Shown one piece after another: positions 8,439 through 55,205 of a DNA stretch of 64,000 nt (position 1 is the stretch's first letter; every line of letters begins with the position of its first letter). The stretch covers positions 26,333,279 through 26,397,278 of the forward strand of contig OZ020611.1 in the NCBI GenBank assembly GCA_963971575.1. Reading direction: 5' to 3'. Made by a program: the position numbers and the translations under genes. Below the pieces are notes generated by a model that saw only the letters and a list, made by a program, of their open reading frames with translations, was not told where the DNA came from and made no database searches. Source of the stretch: Liopterus haemorrhoidalis. Taxonomy: Eukaryota; Arthropoda; Insecta; Coleoptera; Dytiscidae.

Positions 8439-8910
8439 TATGTATTGACTTGGGGTGCCGCGGGAAAATTTTAATACATTAATGACACCTGGAACCGAAA
8501 AGTTTGGGAACCACTGCATTAACAGTTGAAAATTAATTTTAATAAATTGTTAACCACCCTTAGTACCTATTTATTTCCAAAATGTATACACTAAATTTTT
8601 AAATTTAATACCATGTTAACTATTTATTATAATTCTAGAAAACTTTATATTCTAAAAAATGAAATACTGCTTAAAAACTTATATCAAATGTCAGTTTAAA
8701 AAGACGATATACAAATTTTAAAATATACACATTATAAATTTTAAAATCATTTACATATATCATGCTGCAGGACAAGTAGAGTTTAAAACTAAAAAGGTTC
8801 TGGAAAATGAAATGCCACATTACATTAGCTTGAAGTATTACTCTGACTGAAATTACTATAAAATGGAAATGCATTTGAACGACACAAATATGCGCTGTTA
8901 AACAAATATG
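8439..8910. other. unannotated stretch left of the LTR element
   Basis: A hAT-like end (GGGAACCACTG) is visible near 8505-8516. Nothing coding was recognised. Confidence 0.4.
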
Positions 8911-9146
8911 TGTAGCGAACGGACTTTTTGTAGAGACTGTACGTCTATGTGTCGGTGGTGAGGGAGACGGACATACGGGCGTGGGGGAAGTATACGTGTG
9001 TGTACTGCGAACATTAGTTAGTTGTTCGTCGGCAGCGGTTATGGACTGTGTTATTGTGACTATAGACTGTTAACGTGACTCTGTTATGTAATGATAAATT
9101 GTTATATACCTGTAATTACTTAAATTGAATAATAAAATACGCTACA
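8911..9146 (+). repeat. 5' LTR
   Basis: 236 bp, starting TGTAGC and ending GCTACA, a perfect 6-bp terminal inverted repeat with the canonical TG...CA. A possible polyadenylation signal, AATAAA, lies at about 9131-9136, close to the 3' end. It matches the 3' LTR over its whole length by eye. Confidence 0.95.
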
Positions 9147-9168
9147 TTGGTGGCGGCGGTGAGATAAC
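9147..9168 (+). other. primer-binding site, probably tRNA-Leu
   Basis: One base after the LTR, TGGTGGCGGCGGTGAGAT resembles the complement of a eukaryotic tRNA-Leu 3' end, with about two differences from the form I remember. The leader from here to the gag start is only 87 bp. Confidence 0.55.
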
Positions 9169-10054: not shown

Positions 10055-13000
10055 TCGGATAATAAGTCGGGGCGAAAGCAAGACGCTGCGTTAGTGCGTG
10101 TTCGTTGTCATGTCAATAACTTTCCGACAGTGTGTCTCATAGATACAGGTGCGTCGCGATGTTTTGTGAGTCGAGGATTCTGGGAGCGTGTGGGGAACAC
10201 ACTATTGCGAAAAAGCGACGTGCGGGTGTCGCAAGCTGATAAAAGGCCTCTATGCACACGGGGTATAGGAACTGTGACTGTAAAACTGGCTAATGTGTCG
10301 ACTAAAGTAGAAGTGACGGTGTGTGAGGACTTGATTGATGACTGTGTGCTCGGTTGTAACTTTATCCGCGATCAAAAGTGCATAGTAAATCCCGCAGAGA
10401 ACTGTGTAATGATAAAAGGACAACGAGTCGACGAGTATCCAATTATGCCGGCCGCCGTAGTGTTGTGTGAATCGATGGTGATACCTCCGCGAACTGAGGT
10501 AATCGGTCGCGTTAAAGTGACGGGTGAAGAGGTTCGTGTTGCGCGCTTGCTGGAACCCTCCACGCGTTGTTGGGAAAGATACGGTTGTATGGTAAGCCGT
10601 AGTTTAATCACGGATACGGAGGGATCGGTGCTGTTGCGTAACCCGACCCAGGAATGTATAACAGTGCGGAAAAATGTATGTCTTGGCTCAGCGGTGGCGT
10701 GTACTTTAGTGGAGGAACATGCACGGGTGGAAACTAACCCGCCTCATTTGGAATTTGACTGGCAGGAGGCAGAACGTCATTTAACACCGAATCAGTTAAA
10801 ACGCGCCAAGGAGTGTATAGATACGCACGGTCACGTAGTGTCGCGTAACAAGAACGACACCGGGCGTACGAGTGTTTTAAAGCATAAGATAGACACTGGT
10901 ACTTCGCAACCCATACGTCTCGCCCCTAGAAGATTACCGCTGGCACGTCGATCTGAAGCTCAGCAAGAGGTACAGCGCATGTTGAAGGCCGGTGTTATTC
11001 GCCCTTCTTCGTCACCATGGTGTTTTCCAGCAGTCCTGATACGCAAAAAGGATGGCACTATGAGGTTTTGCGTAGACTTCCGCAAGTTGAATGAAGTAAC
11101 AGTGAAGGATAGCTACCCCTTGCCACGGATAGACGACGTGTTAGACTCGTTGTCTGGTGCTACTTTGTTCTCAGCGTTAGATCTACAATCAGGCTACTGG
11201 CAATGCGAGGTGGATAAGGAAGATCGTCCGAAAACGGCCTTTTCTATCGGTTCTGGTTTATACGAGTTCAACGTCCTACCATTTGGTGTCTGCAATGGAC
11301 CAGCCACGTTCCAACGGCTTATGGACCTCATCTTGGAAGGTTTAAACTGGGAGGCGGCGTTGGTATATCTCGATGATGTGATTGTATTCGGTAAAACGTT
11401 TGAGGAACACCTGGAACGACTAATAATGGTTCTGGATCGATTACAGTCTGCCGGGTTAAAGGTGAACCCTAGAAAATGTCGGCTTTTTCATCGAGAAGTC
11501 GAGTTTTTAGGACACATCGTGAGTCATGATGGTATTGCTACAGATCCAGAGAAGTTGCGAGCCGTAGATCACTGGCCGGTGCCTAGAAATTTGACAGAGT
11601 TAAGGTCATTTCTTGGTCTGGCATCGTATTACCGCCGGTTCGTGTTGGGTTTTGCATCGATTGCCGAACCACTTCATCGATTACTGAATAAAGGCGAAAG
11701 ATTCGTCTGGAGCGAGGATTGCGATTGCGCTTTTAAAAAACTAAAGCGTTGTCTAATGACATCCCCTATTTTAGCATACCCGAATCCTCAGTTGCCGTTC
11801 CTTATCGATGTGGACGCTAGTGGCACAGGCATAGGAGGAGTATTAAGCCAGGTTCAGGACGGCGAAGAACGCGTGGTCGCGTATTACAGCCGATCATTAA
11901 CCAAAGTAGAGAGAAGATACTGCGTTACACGCAGGGAAATGTTAGCCCTCGTAGCAGTGTGTCGACAGTTTAAAGGCTATTTATTGGGTGCTCGTTTCAC
12001 AGCTAGAACAGACCACAACTGTCTGCGCTGGCTGCGAGGATTTCGTGAACCAGAAGGGCAGGTTGCAAGATGGCTGGAGATTCTATCCGAATACCACATT
12101 GAGGTAGAGCACCGACCGGGGAAGAAACACGGCAACGCTGATGGATTGTCACGACGGCCATGTTCGCAGTGCGGCATGAACGAAGGAGAGGAGCAAATGG
12201 CTAGTATATGCGCCCTGGATGATCCTGTTGTAGATTCCCCTGTGTTAGTGATGGAACAACGAAAAGACGAGTGTTGTGGCCCCGTGGTGCGAGTGATAAA
12301 CGGGGAAATAACCGAATCTGTTTTGGACAAATCGGCTCACAAACTTTATATGTTGAAGCCTGAACTGAAAGATCAAGTGCTGTGTATCGTGGACAGAACG
12401 GGTCGGTTACCTGAATACCGGGCGGTGGTACCTGCGTCAATGGTGTCGGAGATCATGCGAGTGTACCACGGAAACGCTTCGGCAGGAGCGCATATGGGTG
12501 TGACCAGAACTCTATCGCGGTTGCGTGAGCGGTTCTTTTGGTTTAATATGCAGCGCGATGTTGCGGATTGGTGTCGTAAGTGTGAAGACTGTAGCCGTCG
12601 TAAAACACCCATACCTTCAGCCAAGTCGCCGTTACTCACACATTTAGTAGAGCGTCCTCTTCAGCGCGTTGCATTAGACATTTTAGGACCACTGCCTACG
12701 ACCGAACGCGGTTGCAAGTATATTATGGTTGTGAGTGATTATTTCACGAAATGGACGGAAGCATACGCGTTACCTAATCAAACAGCTGAAACGTGCGCGC
12801 GCGTTTTCGTCGACGAATTCGTTTGCCGCTATGGCGCCCCTGAGATTCTGCATTCTGATCAAGGCCGACAATTTGAGTCTCAATTATTTCAAGAGATGTG
12901 CCGCCTGTTAGACATCGAGAAAACGCGCACCACACCATTTCGGCCTCAGTCTGACGGCATGGTGGAGCGATTTAACAGGACGCTCCTGAATATGCTGAGC

Positions 13001-14512
13001 CACTGGGCAGGCGAACATCAACGGACCTGGGACACTAAGTTGCCTCAAGTGATGCTGGCTTATCGTGCTAGTCGGCATGATAGTACCCGATACACACCCT
13101 TTACCATGATGTTTGGTAGAGAGATACGGTTACCGGCCGATGCACAGTACGGACTACCCCCAGATACATCGTGCCGATCGGATCAAGAGTTTGTTCGTAA
13201 TTTGAGAGCATCCTTAGACCAAGCACACGAGGCTGCCCGTGAGCATTTAGGGGTGGCTCATCGCCGACAGAAAGAATATTACGACCGTAATGCGAAACCT
13301 CGATCATATCAAGTGGGCGATGTTGTGTGGGTCCATCAACCTACCCCACGTGTTGGGGAGACTAGTAAACTACATCGTCCCTGGACGGGTCCGTATCGGG
13401 TAATCAAGGATATCGGAATGCATACTTTCCGTGTGCAGCATTGCGCTTTAAAACACAAGCGCTTGGTAATACATCAAGATCGTCTGAAACCGTGTGCTGA
13501 GGTGCCAGCACCCGACACCGCGATGCGAGAAGAACGAGCGAGGAGACGCCCTGGACGACCCCGACGCAGCGCAGTGGGTGGCCATCAATCAGATGCCGAC
13601 ACCCATTGTTGGGAAGAGGTAGCCGGTGATGTGTTTGATTCCCCTGCAGAATATGGTTTAGCTCATTGTGTAGCTGAGGACCTGAAAATGGGCGCTGGAA
13701 TAGCTGTGGAATTCAAAAAGAAATTCCAGGGTATAGATCAGTTAAGGGATCAGAATCTTCGAACAGGGGACGTGGGGATGTTGCGATCCCCCGGACGGTA
13801 CGTCTTTTATTTAGTGACTAAGAAATGTAGTCACCAACGGCCAACCTATGATTCTCTGCATCAAGCTCTATGTTGTTTGAGAGATCGCGCCGTGACTCAT
13901 GGAGTTGATAAGATAGCCATGCCTATGATAGGATGTGGACTGGATGGATTAAATGAACACCGAGTAAAACAACTGATCAATCAGGTGTTCCAAGGACAGG
14001 GCATCCAGATTCGTATTTATAAAGACCAGAAGGCTCAGAGAGTCACTCGTCCAACAACCGTACAGACTCCTGGGGGCGCGATTGGTGATTCTAGTCGTTG
14101 TTCAACACCATTGTCATGGCCTAGCCCCGGGCGTGAATCACTTGCCCCCGATATCTGCCCAGAAACGGTTTCTGATGTTGGCGACTCTTCGATACAGAAT
14201 CGGAGCATCGAAACACCAGATGAGCTCTCCGAAACAGAGGAGGAGACTGACTACGTCATGGCTGAGGGCGATAATATCCCGAATATGGGAACCGGAGAGA
14301 CTGCCGGTAAAGAGGAGCGACCCCCGGAGGACCCATCAGAGCCTGTTGTGGAGGACGGTGTGCTTGTTGAGGACGTTAGTGCTGACCCAGTGGCCCCGAA
14401 TGAGGGCGGTGAAGTATCCGAAAACCAGGAACCCAGACGCGTATTGCCGCCTCGAGTTTCGCGTGATGTTGCCAGAAGTCGTATTCTGGACACTTTCGGG
14501 AGAAAGTGCTGA
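10025..14512 (+). CDS. pol: Pol polyprotein with C-terminal TARG1-like macrodomain (1495 aa)
   Basis: Domains in order: aspartic protease with LIDTGAS (Asp40); reverse transcriptase with YLDD at 448-451; RNase H with DVDAS (595-599); integrase zinc finger (His815, His823, Cys853, Cys856); DD35E core (Asp885, Asp945, Glu981); GPY/F module (1122-1124); a basic RPGRPRR stretch (about 1175-1181). Residues about 1199-1335 are a complete macrodomain closely resembling TARG1/OARD1, the hydrolase that removes ADP-ribose from glutamate or aspartate. The block includes AHCVAEDLKMGAGIAVEFKK, and the residues equivalent to human Lys84 and Asp125 are kept (Lys1266 in YLVTKK, Asp1307 in IGCGLD). A serine-, proline- and acid-rich tail of about 160 residues follows. 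No premature stop or frameshift. Polyprotein processing around the macrodomain is unknown. Confidence 0.95.
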   Translation: MKASTCPASMSDNKSGRKQDAALVRVRCHVNNFPTVCLIDTGASRCFVSRGFWERVGNTLLRKSDVRVSQADKRPLCTRGIGTVTVKLANVSTKVEVTVCEDLIDDCVLGCNFIRDQKCIVNPAENCVMIKGQRVDEYPIMPAAVVLCESMVIPPRTEVIGRVKVTGEEVRVARLLEPSTRCWERYGCMVSRSLITDTEGSVLLRNPTQECITVRKNVCLGSAVACTLVEEHARVETNPPHLEFDWQEAERHLTPNQLKRAKECIDTHGHVVSRNKNDTGRTSVLKHKIDTGTSQPIRLAPRRLPLARRSEAQQEVQRMLKAGVIRPSSSPWCFPAVLIRKKDGTMRFCVDFRKLNEVTVKDSYPLPRIDDVLDSLSGATLFSALDLQSGYWQCEVDKEDRPKTAFSIGSGLYEFNVLPFGVCNGPATFQRLMDLILEGLNWEAALVYLDDVIVFGKTFEEHLERLIMVLDRLQSAGLKVNPRKCRLFHREVEFLGHIVSHDGIATDPEKLRAVDHWPVPRNLTELRSFLGLASYYRRFVLGFASIAEPLHRLLNKGERFVWSEDCDCAFKKLKRCLMTSPILAYPNPQLPFLIDVDASGTGIGGVLSQVQDGEERVVAYYSRSLTKVERRYCVTRREMLALVAVCRQFKGYLLGARFTARTDHNCLRWLRGFREPEGQVARWLEILSEYHIEVEHRPGKKHGNADGLSRRPCSQCGMNEGEEQMASICALDDPVVDSPVLVMEQRKDECCGPVVRVINGEITESVLDKSAHKLYMLKPELKDQVLCIVDRTGRLPEYRAVVPASMVSEIMRVYHGNASAGAHMGVTRTLSRLRERFFWFNMQRDVADWCRKCEDCSRRKTPIPSAKSPLLTHLVERPLQRVALDILGPLPTTERGCKYIMVVSDYFTKWTEAYALPNQTAETCARVFVDEFVCRYGAPEILHSDQGRQFESQLFQEMCRLLDIEKTRTTPFRPQSDGMVERFNRTLLNMLSHWAGEHQRTWDTKLPQVMLAYRASRHDSTRYTPFTMMFGREIRLPADAQYGLPPDTSCRSDQEFVRNLRASLDQAHEAAREHLGVAHRRQKEYYDRNAKPRSYQVGDVVWVHQPTPRVGETSKLHRPWTGPYRVIKDIGMHTFRVQHCALKHKRLVIHQDRLKPCAEVPAPDTAMREERARRRPGRPRRSAVGGHQSDADTHCWEEVAGDVFDSPAEYGLAHCVAEDLKMGAGIAVEFKKKFQGIDQLRDQNLRTGDVGMLRSPGRYVFYLVTKKCSHQRPTYDSLHQALCCLRDRAVTHGVDKIAMPMIGCGLDGLNEHRVKQLINQVFQGQGIQIRIYKDQKAQRVTRPTTVQTPGGAIGDSSRCSTPLSWPSPGRESLAPDICPETVSDVGDSSIQNRSIETPDELSETEEETDYVMAEGDNIPNMGTGETAGKEERPPEDPSEPVVEDGVLVEDVSADPVAPNEGGEVSENQEPRRVLPPRVSRDVARSRILDTFGRKC
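13615..14029 (+). other. macrodomain-coding segment of pol
   Basis: This segment encodes residues about 1197-1335 of Pol. Motifs in order: GDVF (the first strand, preceding the adenine-binding part in the family), AHCVAEDLKMGAGIA (phosphate/ribose-binding loop), a Lys1266-containing strand, PTYDSLHQAL, and MPMIGCGLDGL with Asp1307. The size and order match stand-alone TARG1 proteins of about 150 residues. It is in frame with integrase without an intron, consistent with capture from a processed transcript. Catalytic activity is inferred from conserved residues only. Confidence 0.9.
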
Positions 14513-14527
14513 CTTAGTAGGGAAGAG
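14513..14527 (+). other. polypurine tract
   Basis: AGTAGGGAAGAG immediately precedes the 3' LTR, in the expected position for plus-strand priming. It is short and interrupted by one T. Confidence 0.65.
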
Positions 14528-14763
14528 TGTAGCGAACGGACTTTTTGTAGAGACTGTACGTCTATGTGTCGGTGGTGAGGGAGACGGACATACGGGCGTG
14601 GGGGAAGTATACGTGTGTGTACTGCGAACATTAGTTAGTTGTTCGTCGGCAGCGGTTATGGACTGTGTTATTGTGACTATAGACTGTTAACGTGACTCTG
14701 TTATGTAATGATAAATTGTTATATACCTGTAATTACTTAAATTGAATAATAAAATACGCTACA
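14528..14763 (+). repeat. 3' LTR
   Basis: 236 bp with the same TGTAGC...GCTACA ends as the 5' LTR. No difference from it was seen by eye. Confidence 0.95.
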
Positions 14764-14774
14764 TATGTATTAAA

Positions 14775-32197: not shown

Positions 32198-33101
32198 CGA
32201 GGTCTGTTCAAAAAGTATCGCGAATTTTGTGTTTTTTTTTTTTTTTCAAAAATAATTTATTTATTCATGAATATCTACTTTGTCCCCTTCAAAGTAATCC
32301 CCACCATATATTATACACTTGTGCCAACGTTTTTTCCAATCCTCGAAGCACTTGAAAAAATCATTTTTTTCAGCTCCTCCTTCGATGCCGTCTTTATCTC
32401 CTCACTCGTAGCGTAGCGTCGTACTTTCATGGGCCTCTTCAGTTTCGGGAACAAGAAAAAGTCACAGGGGGCCAGATCTGGGGAATACGGTGGCTGCGGC
32501 ATTATTAGTGTGTTGTTTTTGGCCAAAAATTCGCGCACAAGCAACGATGTGTGGGCAGGGGCGACCAGTCTCATGCCCAAATCATTGGTAAAAATCGAAT
32601 GGCACCAGCCAATCGATATGTTTAGGTCCTCAGCAACTTCTCTAACAGTGATTTGACGATTAGCCAATACTATTTTCTTCACTTCATTAATGTTTTCGTC
32701 TGTCGTTGTCGTGCTCGGGCGTCCGGCACGCTCTTCGTTCATATCTTCTCGGCCCTCTGAGAACATTTTGTACCACCGATAAACGTTGCTTCGGTCCAAG
32801 GTAGCTTCACCATATGCCACAGTGAACATTCGGAATGCGTCCGCGCACTTAATTTGGTTTTTCATACAAAATTTGATACAGATTCTTTTATCCATTTTTT
32901 GGTATAGGCAAAAATCGATGACGAGCCAAAACACGTGCAAGCAAAACAACTGTCAAAAATTAACTGAACGTTCAAAATGGCCGAACTTGTCGGCATAAGT
33001 GAGAGACATGAGTACCAACATAACGCCACAAAAAAATCGAAAATCGAATATACGTAACCCGCGGAAATTCAAAATTCGCGATACTTTTTGAACAGACCTC
33101 G
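32198..33101 (-). mobile_element. mariner element with clean internal deletion
   Basis: Identical terminal inverted repeats of about 32 bp start CGAGGTCTGTTCAAAAAG at both ends, with TA at 32196-32197 and 33102-33103. The 904-bp element retains the 5' and 3' parts of its transposase gene. Good terminal repeats suggest it was mobilised in trans and is fairly young. Confidence 0.9.
32311..32895 (-). CDS. internally deleted mariner transposase (about 194 aa)
   Basis: The ATG at 32895 (MDKRICIKFCMKNQIKC) is the family start; the ORF extends further upstream without another likely start. Residues 1-120 hold the paired helix-turn-helix DNA-binding region (GRPSTTTTDENINEVKKIVL, then NRQITVREVAEDLNISIG). 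After GMRLVAP the frame jumps to AHTSLLVREFL and YSPDLAPCDFFLFPKLKR, so the segment with the first two catalytic aspartates is gone while the frame is preserved. The C-terminus appears frame-changed before the stop. It cannot catalyse transposition, but a DNA-binding product that could interfere with active copies is possible. The vertumana-like assignment is from memory. Confidence 0.75.
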   Translation of the reverse strand: MDKRICIKFCMKNQIKCADAFRMFTVAYGEATLDRSNVYRWYKMFSEGREDMNEERAGRPSTTTTDENINEVKKIVLANRQITVREVAEDLNISIGWCHSIFTNDLGMRLVAPAHTSLLVREFLAKNNTLIMPQPPYSPDLAPCDFFLFPKLKRPMKVRRYATSEEIKTASKEELKKMIFSSASRIGKNVGTSV

Positions 33102-54029: not shown

Positions 54030-55205
54030 ACTCGTATATGTTTATCGATTTAGAGAAAGCGTTTGATAAAGTACCACGCAAGAAACTGTAGGAAATGCTA
54101 GAAAATAGGGGAATTAGTAGCAAAATAATTAGAATAATACAGAAAGTATATGGAAATAATCGTAATGCAATAATTTATAATAGTCAACAATCGAGTATTT
54201 TTAAAACGGAAGAAGGATTAAGACAGGGTGGAGGATTAAGTCCAACGCTGTTTATAACATTTATGGATGAAATTATAAAAAAGTGTAAAAATGAAACAAA
54301 AAAGTTCAAGGTTGGATATAGGAATATGCAAATAACTAAAATATCGGAAGCAGTGTTTGCTGACGACGTTGTTATAATAGCAAAAGGACGAAACGAATTA
54401 CAGGAAAATTTAAATGTATGGAATAGAATATTAAAAGAATACGGTATGACAATGAATAAAAATAAAACGAAAGTTATGGTATTAGGAACAGATGAAATCA
54501 TAAATATAAAAATAGACGACATTAATATTGAACAGGTTAAGAATTTCAAATACTTAGGAATAGATATAAGAGAGGATGGAAAACAAGAAATGGAGATAAA
54601 TACAAGAATAGAGAAGACAACAAAACTTTACTTTGACATAAAGAATACACTCATCAATAGGAAAGAAATAACAAGGCCAACAAAAATAAACGTATTCAAA
54701 GCTATATACAGACCGGTACTGACTTTTGGCTGTGAGACCTGGACGCTTTCAAGAAGAGAAAAGAGTCAAATACAAGCTTTGGAGATGAAGTATTTAAGAA
54801 GAGTAAAGGGTGTGACTAAGATGGATAAAATCAGAAATAAAGATATAAGAAAAGAACTCGATATAGAACCGATTGAACAATTCATAGAAAACCGACAACT
54901 GGCTTGGTGGGGACACATGCAAAGACTGCAAGACACAAGACAAGTGAAGCAGATCTGGGAGACCAGAATGTACAGAAAGCAAAGAATAGGAAGACCAAGA
55001 AATACATGGGACAGAACAGTAAAAGAGATAATAGAGAAAAGAGGAAAAACGATTATAGAAGCTAAAAGAATAACAAGAAACAAAAAAGACTGGGCTAAAT
55101 TCGTACATGAACCCGTACTGCCATAATATAGAAAAGAAGGAGAAAACAAAGAAATACAGCCTACACCATACTATGGTAGAAGGCTTCTAGATATATATAA
55201 TGAAT
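54030..55205 (+). mobile_element. 5'-truncated RTE-like non-LTR retrotransposon
   Basis: Begins within the RT domain (MFIDLEKAFDKVPRKKL), continues through an intact C-terminal ORF and ends in a short AT-rich 3' tail (GATATATATAATGAATAATA). Endonuclease and the 5' RT motifs are absent. Confidence 0.8.
54095..55126 (+). pseudogene. reverse transcriptase C-terminal part of an RTE-like element (343 aa)
   Basis: An in-frame TAG (54089-54091) separates this ORF from upstream RT sequence carrying FIDLEKAFDKVP, so the annotated ATG is only the first after that stop. Motifs: RQGGGLSPTLF (about 42-52), the catalytic FADDVV (about 88-93), YGMTMNKNKTKVMVLG, KYLGIDI, then the tail FGCETWTLSRREKSQ, YLRRVKGVTKMDKIRN, WWGHMQRL and RIGRPRNTW. 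This is the order seen in insect endonuclease-RT proteins. It reverse-transcribes element RNA at a target nick in intact relatives. Only one stop mars the remaining region, so the insertion is relatively young. The coding strand is strongly A-rich. Confidence 0.85.

Follow-up and report, generated by a model that had tools for sequence, protein, structure and literature searches.

What is an enzyme fold known for removing ADP-ribose doing inside an insect retrotransposon polyprotein? The question arises from a 64,000-nucleotide stretch of the genome of the diving beetle Liopterus haemorrhoidalis (contig OZ020611.1 of assembly GCA_963971575.1, positions 26,333,279 to 26,397,278; hereafter the window), in which a Ty3/gypsy long terminal repeat (LTR) retrotransposon carries, behind its integrase, a macrodomain resembling human TARG1 (also OARD1 or C6orf130). 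An original prediction, made from the letters of this DNA alone, had proposed that the element captured a host TARG1 cDNA and uses it to counter host ADP-ribosylation. Our analysis arrives at a related reading, to which we give a probability of roughly 60%: the element appears to bear a TARG1-type ADP-ribosyl-hydrolase as an extra Pol domain, which would most likely undo ADP-ribosylation imposed by the host.

The identity of the domain was established by comparison with human TARG1. Pol residues 1199-1332, contained in the translated piece P0002 (13592-14053), align with TARG1 residues 10-143 at 45% identity and without a single gap; a chance match is excluded because the E-value is 8e-38. The predicted fold is also of the TARG1 type. 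The Pfam Macro profile scored 24.5 bits (cut-off 22) on the isolated piece and 20.8 bits, slightly below the cut-off, on the longer 13025-14512. Judged by sequence, the domain is a TARG1-type macrodomain of the ALC1-like class, closest to TARG1 itself. The fold had been predicted at about residues 1199-1335 and the profile placement among macrodomains anticipated, and both are borne out. The predicted nucleotide span, 13615..14029, does contain the domain; its start fails, the pol-frame segment beginning at 13616 and the frame of 13615 being rich in stops. The residues named as catalytic in human TARG1, Lys84 and Asp125, align with Lys1266 and Asp1307, again as foreseen. One review prints residue 125 as glutamate in the passage concerned (PMC7050489); the chain aligned here has aspartate.

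The module is widespread in the host genome. The assembly that we searched comprises 1.02 Gb in 91 contigs and includes long arrays of TTAGG, the arthropod telomere repeat, one of them at the extreme start of contig C4. The best 150 of 377 candidates from a search with the macrodomain (all E <= 0.001) and the best 150 of 389 from a search with human TARG1 were scored; the latter added, by eye, at least 17 places, including a family whose reading frames span 1465-1469 codons. Among 116 loci examined (30 + 80 + 6), 107 hold a full-length open macrodomain and the remaining nine are cut or interrupted. Grouping by single linkage at 80% protein identity assigns 104 of the full-length loci to nine element families: F1, the family of the window element (14 loci), F2 (13), F4 (24), F5 (30), F6 (15), F7 (2), F8 (1), F9 (2) and F10 (3). 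F1 copies are spread over many contigs; their junctions are the same and LTRs bound them. The other three full-length loci are single genes (L023, L038 and L039) that lack retroelement domains, stand at 52%, 52% and 50% to human TARG1, among the best matches listed, and have a splice-donor-like GGTAAGC or GGTGAGT directly after the macrodomain; they look like host TARG1-type genes. L038 and L039 lie on the same contig, about 0.33 Mb apart, and all three have long and differing N-terminal parts.

Across these families the catalytic pair is nearly invariant. Lys84 is retained in 104/104 full-length element domains and Asp125 in 101/104, the other three being F4 copies with asparagine. The nine cut or interrupted element loci keep Lys84 in 9/9 and Asp125 in 8/9, which brings the combined counts to 113/113 and 109/113, respectively.

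The place of the module within pol, by contrast, is not fixed. F1 and F4 have it C-terminal to integrase, whereas in F5, F7, F9 and F10 it separates RNase H from integrase and in F2 protease from reverse transcriptase (RT). The single F8 copy read (L127, whose macrodomain is 96% identical to that of L115) has one frame that encodes protease, macrodomain and integrase, with no RT or RNase H match, and L113, from the F6 cluster, shares this layout and likewise has no match to RT or RNase H. F6 was read from LTR to LTR in one copy, in pieces (C1:64547946-64552957; L131, L073 and L130): between identical 221-bp LTRs it has a gag open reading frame (ORF), a 474-codon protease-macrodomain ORF and an envelope-like, Baculo_F-like ORF (4.4e-16), and no match to RT, RNase H or integrase. 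F6 and F8 may be assisted in their mobility by complete relatives. The predicted fusion to integrase therefore holds for F1 and F4 and not for the families with the module at the RNase H-integrase or protease-RT position; integrase fusion is not the essential point, because other families place the module elsewhere in pol. In F4, a CCCH zinc finger was also found behind the macrodomain (L061, residues 448-472 of the translated piece; PF00642, 8.6e-06).

We then asked whether the macrodomain is maintained, comparing omega (the ratio of nonsynonymous, dN, to synonymous, dS, change) among copies with 5000 simulations matched to the mutation spectrum, stop-containing copies being left out. Many such tests were run, and variants in related copies are non-independent. 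Inserted copies evolve freely, which raises omega, so the values err on the conservative side. Omega was 0.39 in F2 (23/5000 simulations as low; variants in at least two copies, 0.39, 186), 0.44 in F5 (59/5000; at least two copies, 0.30, 239) and 0.22 in F6 (0/5000; at least two copies, 0.20, 0). Purifying selection on the macrodomain is clear in these three families, partial in F4 and not significant in F1, where too few differences separate the copies. The neutral decay that would have spoken against the original prediction is accordingly rejected in F2, F5 and F6 and not in F1. Neighbouring domains are also constrained (F4 integrase 0.37, 0/5000; F4 tail 0.53, 146; F5 RNase H 0.37, 55; F2 protease 0.51, 91), and F1 integrase gave 1.36 (4100/5000). 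Only in F6 is the macrodomain tighter than its neighbours: across 11 copies, with the divergent L113 and L114 left out, it gave 0.24 (40), whereas the protease piece came to 0.68 (588) and the tail to 1.18 (3545). A sites-only variant count (omega 0.45 in F1, 0.35 in F2, 0.37 in F4, 0.29 in F5 and 0.14 in F6; each p < 0.01) was replaced by the spectrum-matched test because the latter is stricter; F1 and F4 (all variants) lose significance under it. Between lineages, ten pairs were compared by the NG86 method, three of them with dS beyond estimate. L073 and L113 of the F6 cluster differ by dN 0.079 and dS 0.92, and F5 and F8 by dN 0.13 and dS 2.0-3.0, the latter near saturation.

Where did the module come from? 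A tree of 39 macrodomain rows, in which each family has up to four distinct rows, splits nine rows from bacteria, phages and viruses from human TARG1, the host genes and all elements (92/89), which supports a derivation of the element macrodomains from animal TARG1. F5-F10 form a single clade (100/99). The tree contains long branches, and F1, F2 and F4 have no supported placement among host genes and other elements, the groupings of F1 with host genes (71/26) and of F4 with F5-F10 (55/25) being poorly supported. Approximately unbiased (AU) tests rejected neither one clade of all elements (p 0.483), nor F1 with F4 (p 0.451), nor F2 with the host genes (p 0.442). Of the predicted capture of a host TARG1 cDNA, the tree supports the animal TARG1 origin and gives no supported donor or number of captures. 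RNase H identity of F1 is 36-39% to F5, F7, F9 and F10. These distant backbones, together with the differing positions in pol, suggest at least three insertions, whether by capture or by transfer between elements, two routes that the tree cannot tell apart.

IMG/VR gave no match with P0002 and a single contig (L003) with query A1, a contig that query A3 returned again; query A1 also found two Paenibacillus genes among genome contigs. The integrase piece matched nothing in phages or IMG/VR, and a PDB search with the linker gave no match. TARG1-like macrodomains were found by tblastn in 113 phage records, from Escherichia, Shigella, Lactobacillus, Fusobacterium, Bacillus and other phages; in the rows listed, most are annotated as hypothetical or phosphatase.

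Not every related element carries the module. We scored the best 150 of 3733 candidates from an RT search of the host assembly; among the matches listed, 46 rows fell at 56-62% identity. Of these, 23 lie within 6 kb of a macrodomain among the matches listed, and the lack of one near the other 23 is a weak negative. The element S1, which belongs to the latter 23, has no macrodomain in its sequence. The closest named RNase H and RT relative met was a circular record deposited as a plasmid of the Wolbachia of the moth Corcyra cephalonica (L004; NZ_CP087956.1, 1-5332). It matches the window element in gag, protease, RT, RNase H and integrase (57% identity to F1 in RNase H) and looks like a host retrotransposon rather than a plasmid. 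A tree built from the integrase C-terminal piece groups this module-free moth element, F4 and S1 apart from F1 (87/88), so presence of the module is patchy, through gains, losses or both.

Taken together, the conserved catalytic residues, the varying place in pol and the persistence of the module in families lacking RT suggest an enzyme that works on its own rather than an integrase tether. We propose that the macrodomain would be made within Pol, packaged in the particle and active as a free-standing domain there or in the pre-integration complex. Its substrate may be ADP-ribose placed by host PARP-type enzymes on particle proteins, integrase, insertion-site chromatin or the nucleic-acid ends of the element, and its removal would relieve a host block. 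By analogy with retroviral dUTPase or the AlkB of orchid gypsy elements, the domain would be a captured eraser that protects the element. According to the review passages cited, TARG1 takes ADP-ribose off acidic residues and nucleic-acid ends and cleaves O-acyl-ADP-ribose esters (PMC7050489), and part of another report describes removal from DNA thymidine, for which Lys84 is required (PMC8501950). The portions consulted of two further papers describe Drosophila without PARP-1, in which the mobile elements with disturbed expression are mostly upregulated, many members of the gypsy superfamily among them (PMC7712786), and silencing of mammalian LINE-1 by SIRT6 mono-ADP-ribosylation (PMC4695847). 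Both fit the existence of a host mark worth erasing; neither shows that the window element meets it.

Several observations weigh against this proposal. Asparagine replaces Asp125 in four F4-type loci. F1 itself has glutamate at Trp129, a position that is tryptophan in 12/12 other row groups and in the cell, phage and host rows, and the MGAG loop reads MSRG in most families other than F1; activity may be altered by either change. Constraint on the F1 macrodomain is not significant (omega 0.69, 773/5000 as low; variants in at least two copies, 0.77, 2753; 12 intact copies, 0.61), and F4 over all variants gave 0.62 (450/5000), constraint appearing only in variants found in at least two copies (0.15, 64). 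S1, whose stop lies about 20 codons past the end of integrase, and the moth element both live well without the module. Finally, in the part of their report at hand, the authors of the Drosophila work allow for an indirect effect of PARP-1 via Lola and Mod(mdg4) (PMC7712786).

Among other explanations, the one that survives best, itself unlikely, is that the macrodomain reads ADP-ribose, tethering integrase to poly-ADP-ribosylated or damaged chromatin and steering insertion much as chromodomains do in chromoviruses. The location of the module after integrase in F1 and F4 corresponds to the chromodomain place in chromoviruses, and passages of the literature state that chromodomains direct to heterochromatin (PMC9289625) and that readers exist among ALC1-like macrodomains (PMC7050489). 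However, both catalytic residues are retained almost without exception, and a domain that only reads would have no need of both Lys84 and Asp125; moreover, in F2 and F6 the module adjoins protease rather than integrase, and no integrase was found in F6. An action on small molecules such as O-acetyl-ADP-ribose or free ADP-ribose products, altering NAD metabolism or signalling without acting directly on the particle or on DNA, is improbable. It would agree with the cleavage of O-acyl-ADP-ribose esters noted above, but the cell has TARG1-like genes of its own (L023, L038 and L039), beside which the small amount supplied by an element would count for little. Slimmer still are the odds of a neutral passenger, that is, host sequence acquired by chance and harmless: retroelements do capture host sequence, and F1 taken alone would allow it, yet the constraint in F2, F5 and F6 rejects neutrality there, dN is low against a high dS between element lineages, and the module is found at three positions and kept where RT is missing. 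An artefact, either a chimeric assembly or a gene copy that happened to land in a single element, has no supporting point and can be dismissed in view of the many LTR-bounded F1 copies with shared junctions, the identical LTRs of the window element and the presence of the macrodomain in a stop-free 1500-codon frame at 10 host-genome places, which rules out an assembly fault.

If the domain is active, restraint of insect retrotransposons by ADP-ribosylation becomes a testable idea, and the families described here, with three places in pol and members lacking RT, would form a natural set of erasers for finding the modified target. They also let a captured host eraser be seen spreading across retroelement families within one genome. 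More tentatively, and at somewhat less than even odds, TARG1-type hydrolases may be a weapon that recurs among arthropod Ty3/gypsy elements whatever its place in pol, through several captures or several moves within pol, and one important enough to be kept by lineages that have lost RT and RNase H; ADP-ribosylation would then be a general arthropod defence against retrotransposons.

The window element is a Ty3/gypsy LTR retrotransposon by its protease-RT-RNase H-integrase order, its TG...CA LTRs and its short target-site duplication (Table 1), and the closest solved relative of its RT-RNase H piece is the Ty3 RT (5.1e-79). Its two LTRs show 0 differences over 236 bp (95% upper bound on divergence 1.3%) and its pol runs uninterrupted for 1495 codons, so that the predicted identity of the LTRs and intactness of the ORF are both confirmed. 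The pol ATG overlaps the gag stop (TAATG), and the open pol frame extends back to 10010. The gag matches, to Ty3 capsid (E 0.016) and CCHC zinc knuckle (E 0.0031), are both below the Pfam cut-offs. A putative primer binding site, TGGTGGCGGC, comes after the 5' LTR, with no complementary tRNA matched. No Pfam chromodomain was found after integrase in three pol pieces (E 0.1) or in the pol tail (E 0.01), the tail had no Pfam match of any kind at E 0.01, and no envelope ORF follows pol, the 3' LTR coming 15 bases after its stop. Elsewhere in the window, three tRNA-Ser(AGA) genes with the same Rfam score and 276-base spacing occupy 30563-31196 on the minus strand, and mariner-type transposase pieces and a piece of another reverse transcriptase lie at 2389-2895, 32311-32949 and 54095-55126.

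Table 1. Features of the macrodomain-bearing retrotransposon, in window coordinates.
Feature	Position	Strand	Evidence or remark
Target-site duplication TATG, left copy	8907..8910	.	read from sequence
5' LTR, TG...CA, 236 bp	8911..9146	+	sequence same as 14528-14763
Candidate primer binding site, 1 base past 5' LTR	9148..9163	+	sequence only
gag ORF, 263 aa	9234..10025	+	weak matches to Ty3 capsid and CCHC zinc knuckle
pol ORF, 1495 aa	10025..14512	+	single open frame, 1495 codons
Aspartyl protease domain	10100..10369	+	Pfam gag-asp_proteas 6.2e-11
Reverse transcriptase domain	11039..11521	+	Pfam RVT_1 2.2e-36
RNase H domain	11786..12094	+	Pfam RT_RNaseH 1e-31
Integrase zinc-binding and core domains	12428..12946	+	Pfam Integrase_H2C2 2.9e-19, rve 4e-14
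Integrase C-terminal domain	13388..13492	+	Pfam Integrase_p58_C 1.2e-08
TARG1-type macrodomain, pol 1199-1332	13619..14020	+	Pfam, TARG1 match, alignment, predicted fold
Lys1266 codon (TARG1 Lys84 in alignment)	13820..13822	+	
Asp1307 codon (TARG1 Asp125 in alignment)	13943..13945	+	
pol C-terminal tail, 152 aa, acidic	14054..14512	+	sequence
Candidate polypurine tract ahead of 3' LTR	14516..14527	+	sequence only
3' LTR, 236 bp	14528..14763	+	sequence same as 5' LTR
Target-site duplication TATG, right copy	14764..14767	.	read from sequence

How does this element compare with known systems? It shares with human TARG1 the fold, the length, 45% gap-free identity and the Lys84 and Asp125 pair, and differs in being a domain of a retrotransposon Pol rather than a free-standing cell enzyme, as well as at Trp129 in F1 and the MGAG loop in most other families. 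Retroviruses include a captured housekeeping enzyme, dUTPase, found at differing places of pol in different lineages; enzyme and pathway are other ones there. As in chromoviruses, F1 and F4 have an extra domain after integrase, but the window Pol has no chromodomain match and the other families use other positions. Phage macrodomains and bacterial DarG represent the same domain class in mobile or defence-linked genes; these are separate genes, and the nine sampled rows (bacteria, phages and one IMG/VR contig) stand apart from the elements in the tree. Among retrotransposons, insect R1 elements, with a viral helicase domain proposed in the passage available to act against host defence (PMC4686597), also had a domain added at the C-terminus, but are non-LTR elements with a helicase of plant-virus type. 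An orchid Ty3/gypsy element has an AlkB demethylase of N6-methyladenosine with activity shown in vitro, again a captured host eraser in a gypsy element, though a different enzyme, in a separate ORF and in a plant; the section read of the same study, an angiosperm screen that found 15 extra domains, names no macrodomain (PMC9289625). The nearest precedent is a review mention of macro domains in teleost epsilon-like endogenous retroviruses (PMC4977317, citing Basta et al. 2009), likewise retroelements with a macro domain, carried there as additional ORFs and here inside the Ty3/gypsy Pol of an arthropod and of TARG1 type. Beyond these fish retroviruses, we came across no LTR retrotransposon, gypsy or otherwise, with a macrodomain in the open-access literature (titles, abstract starts and passages, with subscription papers and Repbase outside); the predicted absence of a described case therefore holds for gypsy elements within that literature and not for retroelements at large. 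Overall, captured erasers in retroelements were already known, and what is new here is that the captured eraser belongs to the TARG1 type and forms part of Pol, where it takes up several positions across many families of a single genome.

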